A DNA stretch of 64,000 nt from Dolichospermum sp. DET69 (GTDB lineage Bacteria > Cyanobacteriota > Cyanobacteriia > Cyanobacteriales > Nostocaceae), in assembly GCA_017355425.1 (NCBI GenBank), contig CP070233.1, positions 1,901,501 through 1,965,500 of the forward strand, written 5' to 3'. Position numbers and translations under genes: made by a program. The notes beneath the pieces were generated by a model that was given only the letters and a program-made list of their open reading frames with translations, was not told the DNA's origin and made no database searches. Below are positions 1,583 to 38,177 of the stretch, piece after piece; the first letter of the stretch is position 1, and each line of letters begins with the position of its first letter.

Positions 1583-3688
1583 TTACAAGGCAGCCAGTAG
1601 CCCATTATGCTTAAGTAAAGCCTTGGTACTGGGTTCTCGTCCCCGGAAGGTTTTAAAGACATCCATTGGATGCTGACTGCCACCTAGTGCTAATACCGTA
1701 TCTCGGTAACGTCTGCCAATAGCGTGAATTGCCACTTCATCTTCTAAGCCCGCTTCTTCAAAAGCAGCAAAAACATCAGCACTGAGAACTTCAGCCCACT
1801 TATAGCCATAGTATCCAGCGGCATAACCCCCTTCAAAAATATGACCAAAAGCACACAAAAACGCATCCTCAGCTAATGGTGATAACACAGTGGTTAATTT
1901 AGAAATCCGGTGTCGCACATCTGTCACAGTTTCCTGACTATTAGGGCAATAGCGATAGTGTAATTCCAAATCAACACTACTAAAATCTAGTTGCCGTAAC
2001 ATAGTTGAACCGCTCATATAATTACGTGCTGCCAACAATTTTTGGTAATAATGCTCCGGTAATGCTTCCCCTGTTTCATAATGTTTGGCCATACCAAACA
2101 AGGTCTGGCGGTCGTAGCACCAATTTTCCATAAACTGACTAGGTAATTCCACTGCATCCCATTCAACATTATTAGTACCTGCTGCCCCTAAATAATCCAC
2201 CTTAGTCAGCATATGATGTAAGCCATGTCCAAATTCATGGAACAATGTCTCAACCTCATCAAAAGCCATCAAACTAGGATGTCCGTCTACAGGGGGAGTT
2301 TGGTTACAAATCAAATAAGCTATAGGTAGGCGGACAGTTGTTAAACCATTTTCTGTGACTCTGCGACGGTGAATGCAAGCATCCATCCAAGCACCACCGC
2401 GTTTTTCTGCGGGACGACTGTAAGCATCTAAGTAAAAGTAGGCAATGGGTTCACCATATTTATCAGCAATTTGGAAATAACGCACATCCTCATGCCAAAT
2501 TGGGGCTTGGCCATCAGCAGATGTTACTTTCACACCAAAAAGCCTTTTCACTAGCCCAAATAGCCCATCTAGGACTTGAGGGAGGGGGAAATAGGGAAGT
2601 AGTTCCTCAGCGGTAAAGGCAAATTTTTCTTCCCGTTGACGTTCAGCCCAAAAGTTAATATCCCAATGTTGCAAATTTTCGGCTTCTGCGGCTCCCTTGG
2701 CTTTAGCAAAAGCTTTGAGTTGTTCTAAATCTTTGACAGCAGCATCATAACTAGCTTGACGGAGTTCTTCTAACAACTTTTCTACAGAGGGAACATCCTT
2801 GGCCATCTTACTAGCTAAACTCAGTTCAGCAAAAGTTTCAAAACCAATTAATTGAGCTAGTTCTTTTCTTAACTCTAAAATTCGTGTAATCAAAGGATTA
2901 TTGTCTAATTCCCCAGAAGATGCCCTGGTAATGTAAGCTTTATAGAGTTTTTCACGCAAATCCCTTCGGGTACTGTGCTGCATGAACGGAAAATAGCTAG
3001 GAAAATCTAAAGTAATATGCCAAGGTCCATGTTCTGGTGTGGCATTTTCTTCTCCAGCAGCACGAGCAACTTGGGCAGCAAGGCTCAATAAGCTACTTGG
3101 TAAGCCATCAACTTCATCCTGGATGGTGAGGATTAAAATAAAGCCTTTAGTCGCATCTAGAACGTGATTAGCAAACCTAGTTGCTAGTTCGGCTAATTCC
3201 ATCTGGATAGCATTAAAACGCTCTCTATCGTTTCCTTCTAACCCCACACCAGACAATTCTGCATCCCGAATTGCAGCTTTGATGATTCGCTGTTGGGCTG
3301 AATCTAAAGTTTCCCAGTTAGGACTATTACGAATTGTTTTAAAAGCATTATAAATGGGTTTGCTTTGACCCAGGATATTCATAAACTGAACTACTTGCGG
3401 CTGTACCTTTTCATAAGTAACCCGTAGTTCTGGACTATTTTTAACACCCATTAAATGATTCAATATCCCCCAACTCCAACTGAGTCTCTCTGTCAATTTT
3501 TCCAGAGGTTCTACTAAGCCACTCCAAGTAGGCTGTATATTTGCTTCTAAAGCAGCTAATTGCTTCTCCAGTTCGGCTAACAGATAATTAAAAGCTGGTT
3601 CGACCTGCTCCGGTTTAATATCCGCAAATTCGGGTAAACCAGAGCTTTGAAGTAGAGGATTCTGATAAATAGTAGCAGTTGCACGCAT
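1583..3688 (-). CDS. prlC: Oligopeptidase A-like M3 family metallopeptidase
   Basis: This 701-residue protein is a full-length M3 (thimet oligopeptidase-like) zinc peptidase, the usual size of oligopeptidase A. The zinc motif HEFGH lies at about residues 484-488 within 'VETLFHEFGHGLHHML', and the third ligand region follows at 'VEWDAVELPSQFMENW'. The N-terminal helical half begins 'NPLLQSSGLPEFADIKPEQVEPAF', typical of the family. The enzyme cleaves short peptides in the cytoplasm, for example degraded signal peptides and proteolysis products. There is no signal peptide. It is a single-gene unit. Confidence 0.95.
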   Translation of the reverse strand: MRATATIYQNPLLQSSGLPEFADIKPEQVEPAFNYLLAELEKQLAALEANIQPTWSGLVEPLEKLTERLSWSWGILNHLMGVKNSPELRVTYEKVQPQVVQFMNILGQSKPIYNAFKTIRNSPNWETLDSAQQRIIKAAIRDAELSGVGLEGNDRERFNAIQMELAELATRFANHVLDATKGFILILTIQDEVDGLPSSLLSLAAQVARAAGEENATPEHGPWHITLDFPSYFPFMQHSTRRDLREKLYKAYITRASSGELDNNPLITRILELRKELAQLIGFETFAELSLASKMAKDVPSVEKLLEELRQASYDAAVKDLEQLKAFAKAKGAAEAENLQHWDINFWAERQREEKFAFTAEELLPYFPLPQVLDGLFGLVKRLFGVKVTSADGQAPIWHEDVRYFQIADKYGEPIAYFYLDAYSRPAEKRGGAWMDACIHRRRVTENGLTTVRLPIAYLICNQTPPVDGHPSLMAFDEVETLFHEFGHGLHHMLTKVDYLGAAGTNNVEWDAVELPSQFMENWCYDRQTLFGMAKHYETGEALPEHYYQKLLAARNYMSGSTMLRQLDFSSVDLELHYRYCPNSQETVTDVRHRISKLTTVLSPLAEDAFLCAFGHIFEGGYAAGYYGYKWAEVLSADVFAAFEEAGLEDEVAIHAIGRRYRDTVLALGGSQHPMDVFKTFRGREPSTKALLKHNGLLAAL

Positions 3689-33379: not shown

Positions 33380-33748
33380 CTATTGAAATCTCGCTAACAA
33401 CTGCTCACGAGATAAACTAGACAACTGCAACAGCAAAGTAGTATATTCGTGAGATGTTAAATTTAATACAGGCTGAACAACTGCCGCTAATTGCTCGTCT
33501 ATAAAACCAAATCGCGCTAAAAGCAGGTTTTCTACTATTTGCCGTCTTTCCTGTTCCTTACCTATTTCCTTACCTATTTCCTTGCCGATCTCCTTACCGC
33601 GCTCTAAACCACGAAGTTCCGTTATCCGTTCCCACTCTAAATAAGCTGGTGTTAAATTCATTATTAGTTCCCTATCTTCAACATCAATCTCATTGCTTAT
33701 TTCCATAGTAATCTTCCAAGTCCCTAACAACTTTAACAATTTTGCGTA
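33380..33748 (-). pseudogene. Rpn/DUF4351-type protein, 3' half, split by an insertion sequence
   Basis: This minus-strand segment encodes 'YAKLLKLLGTWKITMEISNE', 'DVEDRELIMNLTPAYLEWE', a 'GKEIGKEIGKEIGKE' stretch and a DUF4351-type C-terminus ('LLLARFGFIDEQLAAVVQPV', 'SLSREQLLARF'). The open frame beyond 33748 up to 33877 is insertion-sequence DNA and not native. The missing 5' half is at 37971-38177. Putting the halves together restores a continuous frame (about 191 residues) of the Rpn recombination-promoting nuclease/transposase-like group, still lacking its N-terminal PD-(D/E)XK part. Confidence 0.75.
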
Positions 33749-33876
33749 ATTCCCCACCCTCAATGTACTCATAGGGTGGGGATGTAAGCAAGTCAAAAAC
33801 GAAACGTTCTTAAAATGTTTTTTACTGCAAGTAAAAGAGTTTTGAGGACAGTTGAGTTTTTGACAAAATATTAGCA

Positions 33877-34083
33877 TTAGTTCGCAAGTAAATTATCTAT
33901 TATCTGACGCAACCATTCACCATAACTTTGGCTTGGGTCTTTTATTGCCGATATCCTTTCGGCGACTTCTTTATCTATCGTTAGCCCAATCCGAATTTTA
34001 CTCTCTCTATATCTAGCATTATACTTGTTCACTTTGTCTTTGTTTCTCTGTTGCCATTCAGTTTGTGTTCTTGGTTTTTTCAT
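33877..34083 (-). CDS. Ribbon-helix-helix-like small protein inside the tnpB element
   Basis: A 68-residue basic protein: 'KPRTQTEWQQRNKDKVNKYNARYRESKIRIGLTIDKEVAERISAI' and 'SYGEWLRQIIDNLL'. The strand 'IRIGLTIDKEVAERI' followed by two helices is the layout of ribbon-helix-helix DNA-binding proteins. It lies between the element's left hairpin and tnpB, divergent from tnpB with a 72-base intergenic region. That position suggests it could repress the shared promoter region. It ends exactly where the open frame of the disrupted host gene begins, but it is element DNA. Confidence 0.65.
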   Translation of the reverse strand: MKKPRTQTEWQQRNKDKVNKYNARYRESKIRIGLTIDKEVAERISAIKDPSQSYGEWLRQIIDNLLAN

Positions 34084-34155
34084 GAGTTGACATATCTATG
34101 TGACTAGATATATAATAGTATTTAGAATAAACAAAAACAAGGGGTAAAAACATCA

Positions 34156-35001
34156 ATGGCGTTACGTAGAGCAACTTTCAGGCTATATCCCAATAGACAA
34201 GTCAATGAAATGTTGCACTATCACCGCAAACTTCATAAGGACTTATATAATGCCGCTGTATCTAATCGCATTACTTCATATAAAAAGTTTGGTAAATCTG
34301 TTTCTTACTTCGAGCAGCAGAATTGTTTACCGGACTTCAAAGAAGTTTGGATAGAATATAAAACAATTAATTCTCAAGCATTACAAGCCACATTGAAACG
34401 GGTTGATTTTGCTTTTCAAAGGTTTTTTAAGGGACAAGCATTGTACCCTAGATTCAAGTCAATTCGTCATTATTCCGGTTGGACTTATCCATCTTTTACG
34501 GGCTGGAAAGCTCATAGTACAGGGGATAATGGCTATTTAGAATTATCAAAGATTGGTCAAATCCAGATGCGAGGTAAAGCTAGACTTTGGGGGCATCCTA
34601 AAGCTTTAGATATCGTTTACCGCAATGGTAAATGGTATGCTTCCATCGTCTTGGAGATTGATGATACTTTGTTAAAGAATAGTCGCAAAACTGATAATGG
34701 GATTATTGCAATTGACTTAGGTTGCAACGATGCAATCGCATGGACAAATGGTGAAGAAAATGGGTTAGTCCGGGCGCCTCGGTTTTTCCGAAAAGCAGAA
34801 CAAAAAAATAAACAATTGGGTAAAGCTAAACGTCGTAAACGTTCTCCCAATTTCCAGAAAAAAGTCAAGGCTTCTAGAAGGTGGAATAAAACGCAGAAAT
34901 TAGTTAGTAGACTTTCGAGAAAAGTTGCTAACCAAAGACAAAACTTTGTTCACCAGGAAACTACACGAATAATCAGCGGTAATAGCACGGTAGTTACTGA
35001 A
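34156..35001 (+). CDS. tnpB: TnpB, exon 1 (residues 1-282)
   Basis: This encodes the N-terminal wedge and REC-like part and the first RuvC segment of TnpB ('MALRRATFRLYPNRQVNEML' and so on), including the first catalytic aspartate D187 in 'IIAIDLGCNDAIAW'. The last codon before the intron is GAA (34999-35001), the RuvC glutamate E282 in 'VVTE'. Unspliced translation would add five residues ('VRIVG') and stop at 35019, giving a dead fragment. Joining to 37479-37961 restores 'VVTEKLEVKNM' in frame and a 442-residue protein. Confidence 0.9.
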
Positions 35002-35607
35002 GTGCGAATCGTTGGCTAGAAACTAAAAACCCGTAAGGGTTTTGGAGGATTAGCCGCAAGGTACAAAACCTTGACAACTGAATGACCATGTAGGTGAGAG
35101 CCATTATCCTAGAACCCCTCAAACCCTACCCCGTAGGTGCAACGGTGAAAGCATCACCCCCAGGTTCGAGACTAGCCATCAAAGCCTGAAGCGGGGTGAA
35201 AAGGTGTTATTACTGACAGCCTAAGTTGGTAAGCATCGAGCAAAGTACCCATGAGTAAAGCCTAGGCTTGAAGATGCGATTGAATCGTCGTGACTACCAA
35301 CCAGCGAAATAAGGCTAAAGGCGCTGGAGTCAAAAGACACAGGATAAGGAGTTGGCAATGTTCGGTTTGACCAATTTGCACTTCCAATAAACCCGGCGAA
35401 TAGCATCACTCTAAAGGTACACAGCATGGTCATTCGGAACGAGATAACCTCTCGCTTGCTCTCAGGTGATCGAATACCTGAGTAGGTGCTAACCGTATGC
35501 AACGAGAAGGTGAGATTAAATCAAAAGCGAATGTCTGGGGTAATGCCCAGAATATGCTGACAGATTTACGGTGATTTGGATGATAAAGTCCCAAGTAGTG
35601 AGTATAT

Positions 35608-37317
35608 ATGTCTAATACACAGTCTCAACAACTGATGGTGGAATGGCACTCTATTAACTGGCGCAAGCTAGAACGTAGCGTGTATAAGCTCCAAAAGAGA
35701 ATTTATCAAGCCTCCGCCCGTGGTGATGTAAAAGCATATCGCAGACTCCAAAAGACGCTGATGAAGTCATGGTCAGCAAGAGCTTTAGCGGTTCGTAGAG
35801 TCACCCAGGATAACCAAGGGAAAAAGACGGCTGGTGTAGATGGCGTTAAATCGCTGACTCCAAAACAGCGTCTAGAACTCACTGGAAATCTAAACCTGGG
35901 GTCAAAGGTCAGTCCAACTAGACGGGTATGGATTCCTAAGCCTGGAACGGAAGAGAAACGACCTTTGGGAATACCTACAATGAAAGACCGAGCCTTGCAA
36001 GCACTTGTCAAACTGGTATTAGAGCCAGAATGGGAAGCGCGATTTGAGCCTAACTCTTATGGGTTCAGAGCCGGACGCTCATGCCATGATGCAATAGGGG
36101 CAATATTTAACGCTATCAACGGGAAACCAAAATATGTTCTCGATGCCGATATTGCCAAATGTTTTGACCGCATCAACCAGGAAAAACTGCTAATAAAATT
36201 GAATACATCCCCCACCATCCGCAGACAAATTCGCGCATGGTTAAAAGCGGGAGTGATGGACGGTAAGCAGTTGTTTCCAACATCTGAGGGTACGCCACAG
36301 GGCGGGGTAATTTCCCCATTACTGGCAAATATTGCCCTCCACGGGATGGAAGAACGGATTAAGCAATATACAGAAACGCTGGAAGGAAGGAAGCAGCATA
36401 ATTATCAAAGCCTCAGCTTAATCAGATATGCCGATGACTTTGTTATTCTCCACAAAGACATAACCGTTGTCCAAAGATGCAAAGAGATAATCTCTGAATG
36501 GTTACAAGGCATGGGTTTGGAATTAAAGCCTAGTAAAACGAGACTTACTCACACCCTCCATCAGTATGAGCAAGAAAAACCAGGGTTCGACTTCCTTGGT
36601 TTTACGATACAACAATTTCCAGTAGGAAAGTATCACTCGAAGCAGGGCTTTAAAACAATCATCACCCCAAGCAAGCAGAAGCAAAAGGTACACTACGACC
36701 AAATCGCCAGTGTTATTGAAGCTCATAAGGCAGCACCGCAAGCGGCGCTAATCAGCCGTTTAAACCCAATAATTAGGGGATGGGCAAATTACTACGCGAC
36801 TGTGGTAAGTAAGGTGACTTACTCAGATATTGACCACCTTATTTACCAAAAGTTAAACGCTTGGGCAAAACACCGTCACCCCAAAAAGAACGGGAAATGG
36901 GTGTCAAAAAGGTATTGGCAATCCATAGACGGTGATAACTGGGTATTCGCAACCAGGAAGGAAGGTTCAACCTCACTTCGGTTACTAAATCATGCCGACA
37001 CGCCAATAGTGCGTCATGTGAAAGTCAAAGGCGAATCGTCACCATACGACGGAAATCTGGTTTACTGGAGTACAAGAATGGGTAATAACCCAGAAATGCC
37101 AACCAGAGTATCAAAACTCCTGAAAAAGCAAAAAGGGAAATGTACCCACTGTGAAATGTTTTTCCGTGAAGACGATGTAATGGAAGTTGACCATATCATC
37201 CCAAAATCAAAAGGTGGAAAGGATGAGTATAAAAATCTTCAACTTTTACACAGACATTGCCACGATACAAAGACAGCCAATAATGGCAGTCCTGGCACAA
37301 AAATCCGGCTGCAATAG
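35608..37317 (+). CDS. ltrA: Group II intron reverse transcriptase/maturase with HNH endonuclease
   Basis: A 569-residue LtrA-like protein that helps its intron splice and move. It has the N-terminal RT0 region, 'TAGVDGVKSLTPKQR', 'RRVWIPKPGTEEKRPLGIPTMKDRALQALV', the active site YADD at residues 274-277 ('LIRYADDFVILH'), a maturase X domain ('LISRLNPIIRGWANYY'), and a C-terminal HNH nuclease with cysteine pairs (CTHC near 512, 'EVDHIIPKSKGGKDEYKNL' and 'LLHRHCHD'). All parts look intact, so the intron may still be mobile. A C-terminal shadow frame (37187-37384) is ignored. Confidence 0.96.
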   Translation: MSNTQSQQLMVEWHSINWRKLERSVYKLQKRIYQASARGDVKAYRRLQKTLMKSWSARALAVRRVTQDNQGKKTAGVDGVKSLTPKQRLELTGNLNLGSKVSPTRRVWIPKPGTEEKRPLGIPTMKDRALQALVKLVLEPEWEARFEPNSYGFRAGRSCHDAIGAIFNAINGKPKYVLDADIAKCFDRINQEKLLIKLNTSPTIRRQIRAWLKAGVMDGKQLFPTSEGTPQGGVISPLLANIALHGMEERIKQYTETLEGRKQHNYQSLSLIRYADDFVILHKDITVVQRCKEIISEWLQGMGLELKPSKTRLTHTLHQYEQEKPGFDFLGFTIQQFPVGKYHSKQGFKTIITPSKQKQKVHYDQIASVIEAHKAAPQAALISRLNPIIRGWANYYATVVSKVTYSDIDHLIYQKLNAWAKHRHPKKNGKWVSKRYWQSIDGDNWVFATRKEGSTSLRLLNHADTPIVRHVKVKGESSPYDGNLVYWSTRMGNNPEMPTRVSKLLKKQKGKCTHCEMFFREDDVMEVDHIIPKSKGGKDEYKNLQLLHRHCHDTKTANNGSPGTKIRLQ

Positions 37318-37403
37318 TGCCGAGCCTAAGCCCACCAGAAAACTTGAAAAAGTCGAAGGAAAATGGGTAATGAGGTGTGCATGACAAGCACCAAATCATT
37401 GAG

Positions 37404-37437
37404 GAGCCGTGTGAAGGGAAACTTTCATGCACGGTTT
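37404..37437 (+). ncRNA. Group II intron domain V
   Basis: The 34 bases form the catalytic domain V hairpin: GAGCCGTGTG on the 5' side, a GAAA-type tetraloop in 'AAGGGAAACTTT', and CATGCACGGTTT on the 3' side, with the AGC-type catalytic triad near the base. Domain VI ('GAAGACCAACGGGGTTGGTG' and onward) follows to 37478 and should hold the branch-point A. Confidence 0.9.
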
Positions 37438-37478
37438 TGAAGACCAACGGGGTTGGTGACAACCTCGTTGAGTTTAAT

Positions 37479-37961
37479 AAATTAGAAGTCAAAAACATGA
37501 GTGCCAAAGCCAAAAAAGGTAAACGTAAAAAGCAAAAAGCTGGGTTGAATAAATCAATTCTTGATGTAGGAATGGGGATGATAAAGTCCGCTCTAAAAGC
37601 GAAATTATCAGACATTGGTGGCTTGTTTGTAGAAGTACCTACTAGCAAGGTGAAACCATCTCAAACCTGTCCAAAATGTGGACATCAAGAGAAAAAAACT
37701 TTAGACCAACGAACTCACGTTTGCAATAACTGCGGGTATACCCAACAGCGCGATATCGCCGCCGCAGAAGTCATGCTACTTTGGCACTCAAATAATCTAC
37801 AGGGGTTAGGAACTAGCCTCTCAGACGTAGATGATTCTAGCTCTACTTCAAACACTAGCAAACGCAAGAATGCTGGAAGTATGAAGCAACTAGGTCGTGT
37901 GAAACGTCAAAAATCTCAACTTACTGATGGGGATGTAGAAACCCCATCTTCAACGAAGTAA
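37479..37961 (+). CDS. tnpB: TnpB, exon 2 (residues 283-442)
   Basis: The frame resumes with 'KLEVKNMSAKAKKGKRKKQK' and 'AGLNKSILDVGMGM', then the zinc ribbon 'CPKCGHQEKKTLDQRTHVCNNCG', and the third RuvC aspartate D374 in 'QQRDIAAAEVM'. The upstream open extension to 37377 is intron domain V/VI sequence and is not part of tnpB. The 3' end overlaps the right-end hairpin, where an omega RNA is expected. With exon 1 the nuclease has all three catalytic acids. Confidence 0.9.
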   Translation, partial: KLEVKNMSAKAKKGKRKKQKAGLNKSILDVGMGMIKSALKAKLSDIGGLFVEVPTSKVKPSQTCPKCGHQEKKTLDQRTHVCNNCGYTQQRDIAAAEVMLLWHSNNLQGLGTSLSDVDDSSSTSNTSKRKNAGSMKQLGRVKRQKSQLTDGDVETPSSTK

Positions 37962-37970
37962 GATGGGGTA

Positions 37971-38177
37971 GTTCATAATAGTATAGCGTTTGCTATCATC
38001 TTCGGGTAAAGCAATTACTTCATTAATTGCAGCTTGTTGAATTATTCCTTTACCTAAAATCCTCAACCAGAGAGTTTCTGGAGTATTCGCTAACTTATCA
38101 ATGGCAATTACTCCAGTCAGCAGTAATTGTGACGGAAAGTAAATACCTGGCAACCAGTTTTCATCCTCAGTGGCCAT
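37971..38177 (-). pseudogene. Rpn/DUF4351-type protein, 5' half
   Basis: From an ATG at 38177 this encodes 'ENWLPGIYFPSQLLLTGVI', 'AIDKLANTPETLWLRILGKG', 'QQAAINEVIALPEDDSKRY' and 'TIMN', the middle section of Rpn-family proteins ('PETLWLRLLGRGKVQ...AI.E..ALP..DP.R'). The frame joins that of 33380-33748 once the insertion sequence is removed. The family's N-terminal nuclease domain is not present upstream (an in-frame stop lies 18 bases before the ATG), so the gene was probably already a remnant before the insertion. Confidence 0.75.

Follow-up and report, generated by a model that had tools for sequence, protein, structure and literature searches.

Insertion sequence, tnpB gene and intron

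The 64,000-nt stretch analysed here (the window; positions 1,901,501 to 1,965,500 of contig CP070233.1, forward strand) comes from the cyanobacterium Dolichospermum sp. DET69 and carries a copy of a tnpB-only insertion sequence (IS) in which tnpB, the gene for an RNA-guided nuclease of the IS200/IS605 type, is interrupted by a mobile group II intron. The intron lies exactly behind the codon for the catalytic glutamate of the RuvC-II motif, as proposed in the first-pass annotation of this DNA and confirmed by intron-less copies with joined exons and by the alignment of one of these, L158, with ISDra2 TnpB. The extent given in that annotation, 34996-37490, takes in exon bases, and the intron itself occupies 35002-37478. 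The features of the locus are listed below in window coordinates, where IEP stands for the intron-encoded protein, and EBS and IBS for exon- and intron-binding sites.

33732..37976, plus strand: tnpB-only IS copy of about 1768 nt, not counting the intron that it bears (ends approximate; comparison of nine copies)
34156..35001, plus strand: tnpB exon 1, ending with the RuvC-II Glu codon, V-V-T-E (Pfam OrfB_IS605, L158 alignment)
34989..34993, plus strand: IBS2, GGTAG, exon positions -13 to -9 (covariation scan)
34996..35001, plus strand: IBS1, ACTGAA, exon positions -6 to -1, containing the catalytic Glu codon (covariation)
35002..37478, plus strand: group II intron, 2477 nt (intron-less copies, RF00029, ends GTGCG/TTTAAT)
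35294..35298, plus strand: EBS2, CTACC (covariation scan)
35361..35366, plus strand: EBS1, TTCGGT (covariation scan, permutation test)
35608..37317, plus strand: IEP with RVT_N, RVT_1, GIIM maturase and HNH endonuclease domains (Pfam)
37403..37438, plus strand: intron domain 5 (Rfam match, folding)
37441..37475, plus strand: intron domain 6, bulged A at 37471 (folding)
37479..37961, plus strand: tnpB exon 2, zinc ribbon and RuvC-III, starting K-L-E-V-K-N-M (Pfam Cas12f1-like_TNB)

An exon 1 search across 16 genomes of the genus, in which shorter or 70%-identical matches were left uncounted, recovered seven full-length IS copies outside the genome of DET69, distributed over 4 of the 16 genomes and 87-99% identical. 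All seven are intron-less, and their exons are joined exactly at the window junction, without a footprint; four of the junctions (L158, L161, L166 and L170) were read base by base, and all seven are covered by contiguous BLAST pieces. L158, which is 99% identical to the window in exon 1, aligns with the ISDra2-type TnpB (8h1j) over residues 7-378. In this alignment the glutamate at the end of exon 1 is matched to the E of 'GTEHLKPDNM' in RuvC-II, and the aspartates of RuvC-I and RuvC-III are conserved as well; we take the corresponding catalytic residues of TnpB to be D191, E278 and D361. The RuvC D/E/D triad and the zinc ribbon were found in L158, in the window exons and in the joined protein, identifying the gene product as TnpB. 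Compared with eight other copies, the spliced TnpB has ratios of nonsynonymous to synonymous substitution rates (dN/dS) of 0.10-0.36, so that the joined gene looks to be under purifying selection for function; much of this divergence may predate the intron, given that seven of the eight compared copies lack it.

Without splicing, the reading frame adds V-R-I-V-G to exon 1 and stops at 35017-35019. Unspliced mRNA would thus yield a truncated protein, as anticipated in the first-pass annotation, with neither the zinc ribbon nor the third catalytic residue. A further open frame (37377-37961) runs without a stop from intron domains 5/6 into exon 2 in the tnpB frame; unspliced mRNA could therefore in principle also give a C-terminal zinc-ribbon/RuvC-III fragment.

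The intron itself displays the GUGYG 5' end, the AY 3' end, domain 5 and the domain 6 with a bulged A that characterize mobile group II introns of the reverse transcriptase (RT)/maturase/HNH type, along with an IEP containing RT, maturase and endonuclease domains, EBS1-IBS1 and EBS2-IBS2 pairing, and an exact intron-less site in relatives (in all seven full-length copies of the IS recovered from the genus). The Rfam group II intron model RF00029 matches 37402-37478 with 54 bits (gathering score 40). Folding of the 3' segment of the intron (z -6.6) gives a domain 5 hairpin that carries a bulge of 2 nt, the bulged A of domain 6 is the eighth base from the 3' end of the intron, and the IEP frame is open in the window copy. 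An IStron, in which the intron would belong to group I, was considered and dismissed: the two Rfam matches over the element are both to group II intron families. We presume that the intron belongs to the chloroplast-like (CL) class. CL-type group II introns are abundant in Cyanobacteriota (PMC8919778).

The right end of the IS, GGGGTAGTTCAT, is common to all nine copies compared, and a left end starting with TTTAAC is present in seven of the nine, including that of the window. Within the IS, a 68-aa open reading frame (33877-34083, minus strand) is placed divergently beside tnpB.

Exon pairing and copies of the intron in the genome

To delineate the exon-binding sites, we aligned the 5' regions of 60 introns and scanned the columns, setting the complementarity of each row to its own exon against the mean over exchanged rows. 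Two clear signals emerged, pairing intron position 360 with exon positions -6 to -1 (EBS1) and intron position 293 with exon positions -13 to -9 (EBS2). In a permutation test of EBS1, 49 of 61 distinct loops scored at least 5/6 against their own exon, whereas 1000 shuffles gave 4.0 such loops on average and 11 at most; the loop motif is present in 70 of the 194 rows of the survey described below. The EBS1 that the first-pass annotation had placed at 35361-35366 was thus recovered by both the column scan and the permutation test, and the domain I pairings for which it had suggested a check, EBS1 and EBS2, both emerge from exon-intron covariation. Together, EBS2 and EBS1 read GGTAG-NN-ACYGAA, which in tnpB corresponds to V-V-T-E, including the catalytic Glu codon.

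The genome of DET69 contains three full copies of the intron. Those of the window (L002) and of L001 are identical, and the third (L003/L010) differs from the window copy at 4 of 2477 positions. L010 is a second copy of the IS, 99.67% identical to the window over 33730-37977 (4248 nt) but with different flanks, so that both IS copies of the genome carry the intron. By contrast, the L001 intron (L001/L011) resides in a gene for a DDE_Tnp_1 transposase (Pfam), which we take to be of the IS4 type, directly after GGTAGAAACCGAA, an 11-nt word that also precedes the intron in tnpB. The match to IBS1 is perfect in the transposase and includes one G-U pair in tnpB. This identical copy in an unrelated gene rules out a tnpB-specific intron, and argues that the target is the 11-nt DNA word rather than tnpB as such. 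The first-pass annotation had named insertions of the family in unrelated sequence without the E-codon motif as an observation that would contradict its proposal; the transposase copy comes close to this, but its exon also ends in a T-E codon pair. For the L001 host, a search of the genus (16 genomes, that of DET69 included) yielded no close relative, and hence no intron-less site.

In the L010 copy (L010:3998-6474), a stop codon cuts the IEP frame to 206 aa; judging from its sequence, this intron would need maturase supplied in trans by the other two copies. A fourth, 5'-truncated copy (L012:4966-6581) is 92% identical over intron positions 871-2475. It is followed by a different tnpB, whose frame is extrapolated to start again about five codons behind the RuvC-I Asp, and an iscB gene (L012:3625-4926) lies directly upstream.

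Insertions of the family in tnpB and iscB

We collected related introns from three sources, namely, the best 80 of 566 loci by IEP similarity, the loci among the matches listed in a DNA similarity search of 386 genomes of the phylum, and 30 loci and 94 regions (one of them an intron-less IS copy) among the matches listed in a search for the intron start pattern in 192 genomes of the family, 109 of which gave a match. Reading all collected loci with the exact start pattern provided 194 distinct 5' junctions. Using tblastn with 11 TnpB/IscB queries, 29 of these were placed at or beside tnpB or iscB, 23 of them in the tnpB set. Eighteen of the 23 are well inside the gene; the other five (L018, L042, the first L041 junction, L106 and L127) lie at most six residues from the gene end or beyond it and were left out. 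Eleven of the 18 internal tnpB junctions, belonging to several intron lineages, are located 0-6 codons after the catalytic residue of RuvC-I, II or III, by alignment with TnpB:

RuvC-I, +4 or +6: L038, L043, L045, L046, L048, L099, L237
RuvC-II, 0: the window
RuvC-III, about +6: L041, L111, L115

Two further introns show a motif and were kept out of the 11: L262 (RuvC-I), which has a weak non-self match (25%, E 5e-4) away from the junction, and L088 (RuvC-II, 6 codons on), which was placed by a 25-aa motif only. Among six iscB rows, two (L065 and L204) are at RuvC-I.

Given that tblastn queries were built from L038, L041, L045, L046, L048, L077, L085 and L065, the matches of these loci to themselves are circular, and the hosts were therefore rechecked by Pfam on the 3' exons, non-self tblastn or Pfam on the 5' exons. 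The 3' exons confirm the hosts of L038, L045, L046, L048, L099 and L107, and the other two approaches also support the host calls. Pfam assigned no family to the 5' exons of L038, L048, L099, L237, L262, L216, L217, L088 and L034, which stop before the start of the domain, or to that of L205; tblastn against TnpB placed L038, L048, L099, L237, L216 and L217.

In a tree of 108 IEPs, at least eight changes separate RuvC-motif sites (tnpB, iscB and L088) from other sites, a count that is blind to gain versus loss and comes from a quick tree with 25 of 98 inner branches open; L237, L262 and the RuvC-III intron of L041 are outside the tree. In Scytonema sp. NIES-4073, L043, L045 and L046 are the same intron, with at most one difference (0-1) over 2498 nt, each inserted in a different tnpB gene. 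L038 and L048, inserted at RuvC-I of tnpB, cluster with L065, inserted at RuvC-I of iscB (support 91).

A search across the order, restricted beforehand to introns preceded by [AG]A[AG], covered 388 genomes, 48 of which had a match, and contributed 30 loci and 40 regions. Among its 67 new junctions, 16 match TnpB, and alignment places 13 of the 16 in the RuvC-III motif D-x-N-A-A-x/ (the slash, here and below, marks the insertion point), which points to a second, specialised intron group. The EBS1 scan is weaker for the RuvC-III junctions, with a mean of 4.11 compared to 3.33 when permuted (maximum 3.80) over 21 rows, some of them outside tnpB.

The family is also found at other conserved motifs. 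Related introns occupy P-loop codons, GVEGCGK/T, in four genomes (L030, L044, L067 and L068; 5' junctions near 3416); by motif, we take the host to be thymidylate kinase-like, a gene that is probably essential and would need splicing. A sublineage (L050, L052, L056, L061, L227, L242 and L246) is inserted at GFRPG/-type codons of apparent group II intron RT genes, forming twintrons; the hosts are presumed to be RT genes by motif. In L139, L208, L222 and L270, the intron follows WLWVGG, in a ribonucleotide reductase alpha domain according to Pfam for L139 and to the shared motif for the rest, and the family is also inserted at a GGPPCQGF/ motif. Conserved active-site DNA may thus be a general target of the family, of which tnpB and iscB may be a frequent case, helped by their abundance.

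Origin of the insertions and relation to known systems

We consider it very probable that a retrohoming group II intron of the HNH type entered the IS-borne tnpB by EBS/IBS pairing and thereby landed at constant codons of the active site. Insertion would proceed by retrohoming through the EBS/IBS pairings, which are themselves shown by covariation, and the intron and its maturase would then remove the intron from the mRNA, making an intact TnpB possible. A short guide matching active-site codons would find many targets which the host element could not easily mutate away; the copies presumably land in the active site because no other DNA of this very abundant gene family is as constant as the codons there. 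Related introns appear to have repeated such insertion, with observed positions at RuvC-I, II and III of other tnpB genes and RuvC-I of iscB. The IS would serve the intron as both vehicle and new target, and dependence of TnpB output on splicing would be a by-product. We lean, with less assurance, towards the broader proposal that cyanobacterial group II introns several times evolved guides for the RuvC codons of tnpB and iscB (I: D-x-G-x-K/E, with the insertion after the last residue, K or E; II: E/; III: D-x-N-A-A-x/), thereby specialising on the catalytic motif of TnpB/IscB and gaining homing sites that are nearly escape-proof, present in many copies and carried along by IS.

Several observations weigh against this interpretation. 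The survey is not a random sample: it was assembled by similarity and pattern searches from the matches listed and needed an exact intron start, and 165 of its 194 junctions do not align to tnpB or iscB. Seven of the 18 internal tnpB insertions (L040, L077, L085, L107, L128, L216 and L217) are away from catalytic residues. The clustering behind catalytic residues is supported by binomial p-values of 1.1e-5 (11 of 18 junctions), 9e-5 once repeats are collapsed (9 of 15) and 4e-4 when the junction of the window is omitted too (8 of 14), but the span of +-10 codons (63/415) to which they refer was chosen after seeing the data. The abundance of tnpB alone raises the rate of matches, the genome of DET69 having 53 TNB-domain matches, 51 of them over the cut-off. 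The target word GGTAGNNACYGAA is itself not enriched in this genome, occurring five times (three occupied, two not) compared to four for the reversed control. Finally, the RuvC-II position of the window is not a common site: its observed occurrence is confined to the pair of IS copies in the genome of DET69, and no other TnpB-aligned junction among the 194 and 67 shares it, the nearest case being L088, six codons on by its 25-aa motif. The general homing site envisaged in the first-pass annotation is accordingly supported for tnpB active-site codons, which recur as homing sites of the family, and not for the codon of the window; comparison of exon borders in other tnpB introns likewise recovered recurrent catalytic-motif sites but the same codon nowhere else.

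Some of these points favour chance landing, whereby a short EBS word merely happened to occur in tnpB and the active-site position carries no meaning. The DDE transposase holds the intron at the same word, close relatives occur at many unrelated sites, and the exact tnpB site is confined to one genome where its word is not enriched; yet chance does not readily account for the concentration of internal tnpB insertions just behind catalytic residues in several lineages, or for the two of six iscB insertions at RuvC-I, and we regard it as doubtful, albeit worthy of serious consideration. It is somewhat unlikelier that the intron is a mere passenger and that both tnpB sites were filled through transposition of the IS, without retrohoming. 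Both sites are indeed whole IS copies, nearly identical throughout and differently flanked, but the third, identical intron copy is in an unrelated gene, and a comparison of the two IS copies shows fewer differences in the intron (4/2477) than in the IS around it (10/1771; Fisher p 0.03), a hint that the intron reached each copy separately. A splicing switch, in which inefficient or conditional splicing holds TnpB at a low level and thereby benefits intron, IS or host, appears improbable. Unspliced mRNA does stop five codons into the intron, RmInt1 is reported to splice poorly in the transposase gene of ISRm2011-2 and so to limit its host IS (PMC4238363), and Mg/Co-responsive control has been obtained with a group II intron that interrupts a homing endonuclease gene (PMC4801052). 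However, any intron in any gene would have such anatomy, the identical intron interrupts an unrelated transposase, and the stop codon that has cost L010 its own maturase is suggestive of drift, or of splicing in trans, rather than of tuned control.

It is already known that group II introns can interrupt transposase genes and that introns can occupy conserved sites of IS. An example of the former is RmInt1, which we take to lack an endonuclease domain. Like the window intron, RmInt1 of Sinorhizobium meliloti is a mobile group II intron within an IS transposase gene (ISRm2011-2), and its stops make splicing necessary for an intact protein; unlike it, RmInt1 belongs to class D/IIB3 and its host is a transposase rather than a TnpB-type RuvC nuclease, and the parts of the source consulted describe no insertion at catalytic codons (PMC4238363). 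In Thermosynechococcus elongatus, EBS families similarly exploit conserved sites in an IS200-family element (F4 in ISEL1) or in other introns (F3), although in a thermophilic host and with mostly ORF-less introns, that is, introns devoid of open reading frames (Mohr et al., 2010; PMC2882425). IStrons also involve IS605-type elements, by name, but consist of a group I intron fused to the IS as a chimeric unit, not of a group II intron inside the tnpB frame (PMC4227781). The I-CthI gene, like tnpB in the window, encodes a nuclease and is split by a group II intron (group IIA1, nested), and splicing gates the nuclease; here, the setting is a fungal mitochondrion, the intron is ORF-less and the nuclease is a homing endonuclease (PMC4801052). 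More generally, many bacterial introns are surrounded by other mobile DNA (review, PMC4424553).

Among the top papers listed in searches of the open-licence PMC literature, none came to light that describes group II introns at RuvC codons of tnpB, or the repeated use of the catalytic codons of tnpB and iscB by several intron lineages. Such use would bring two RNA-guided mobile systems into direct contact, with the guide of a ribozyme pairing with codons of the active site of a nuclease, and an intact nuclease would be possible only if the intron splices. This relationship is readily testable, and it provides natural EBS/IBS sets that track a protein motif.

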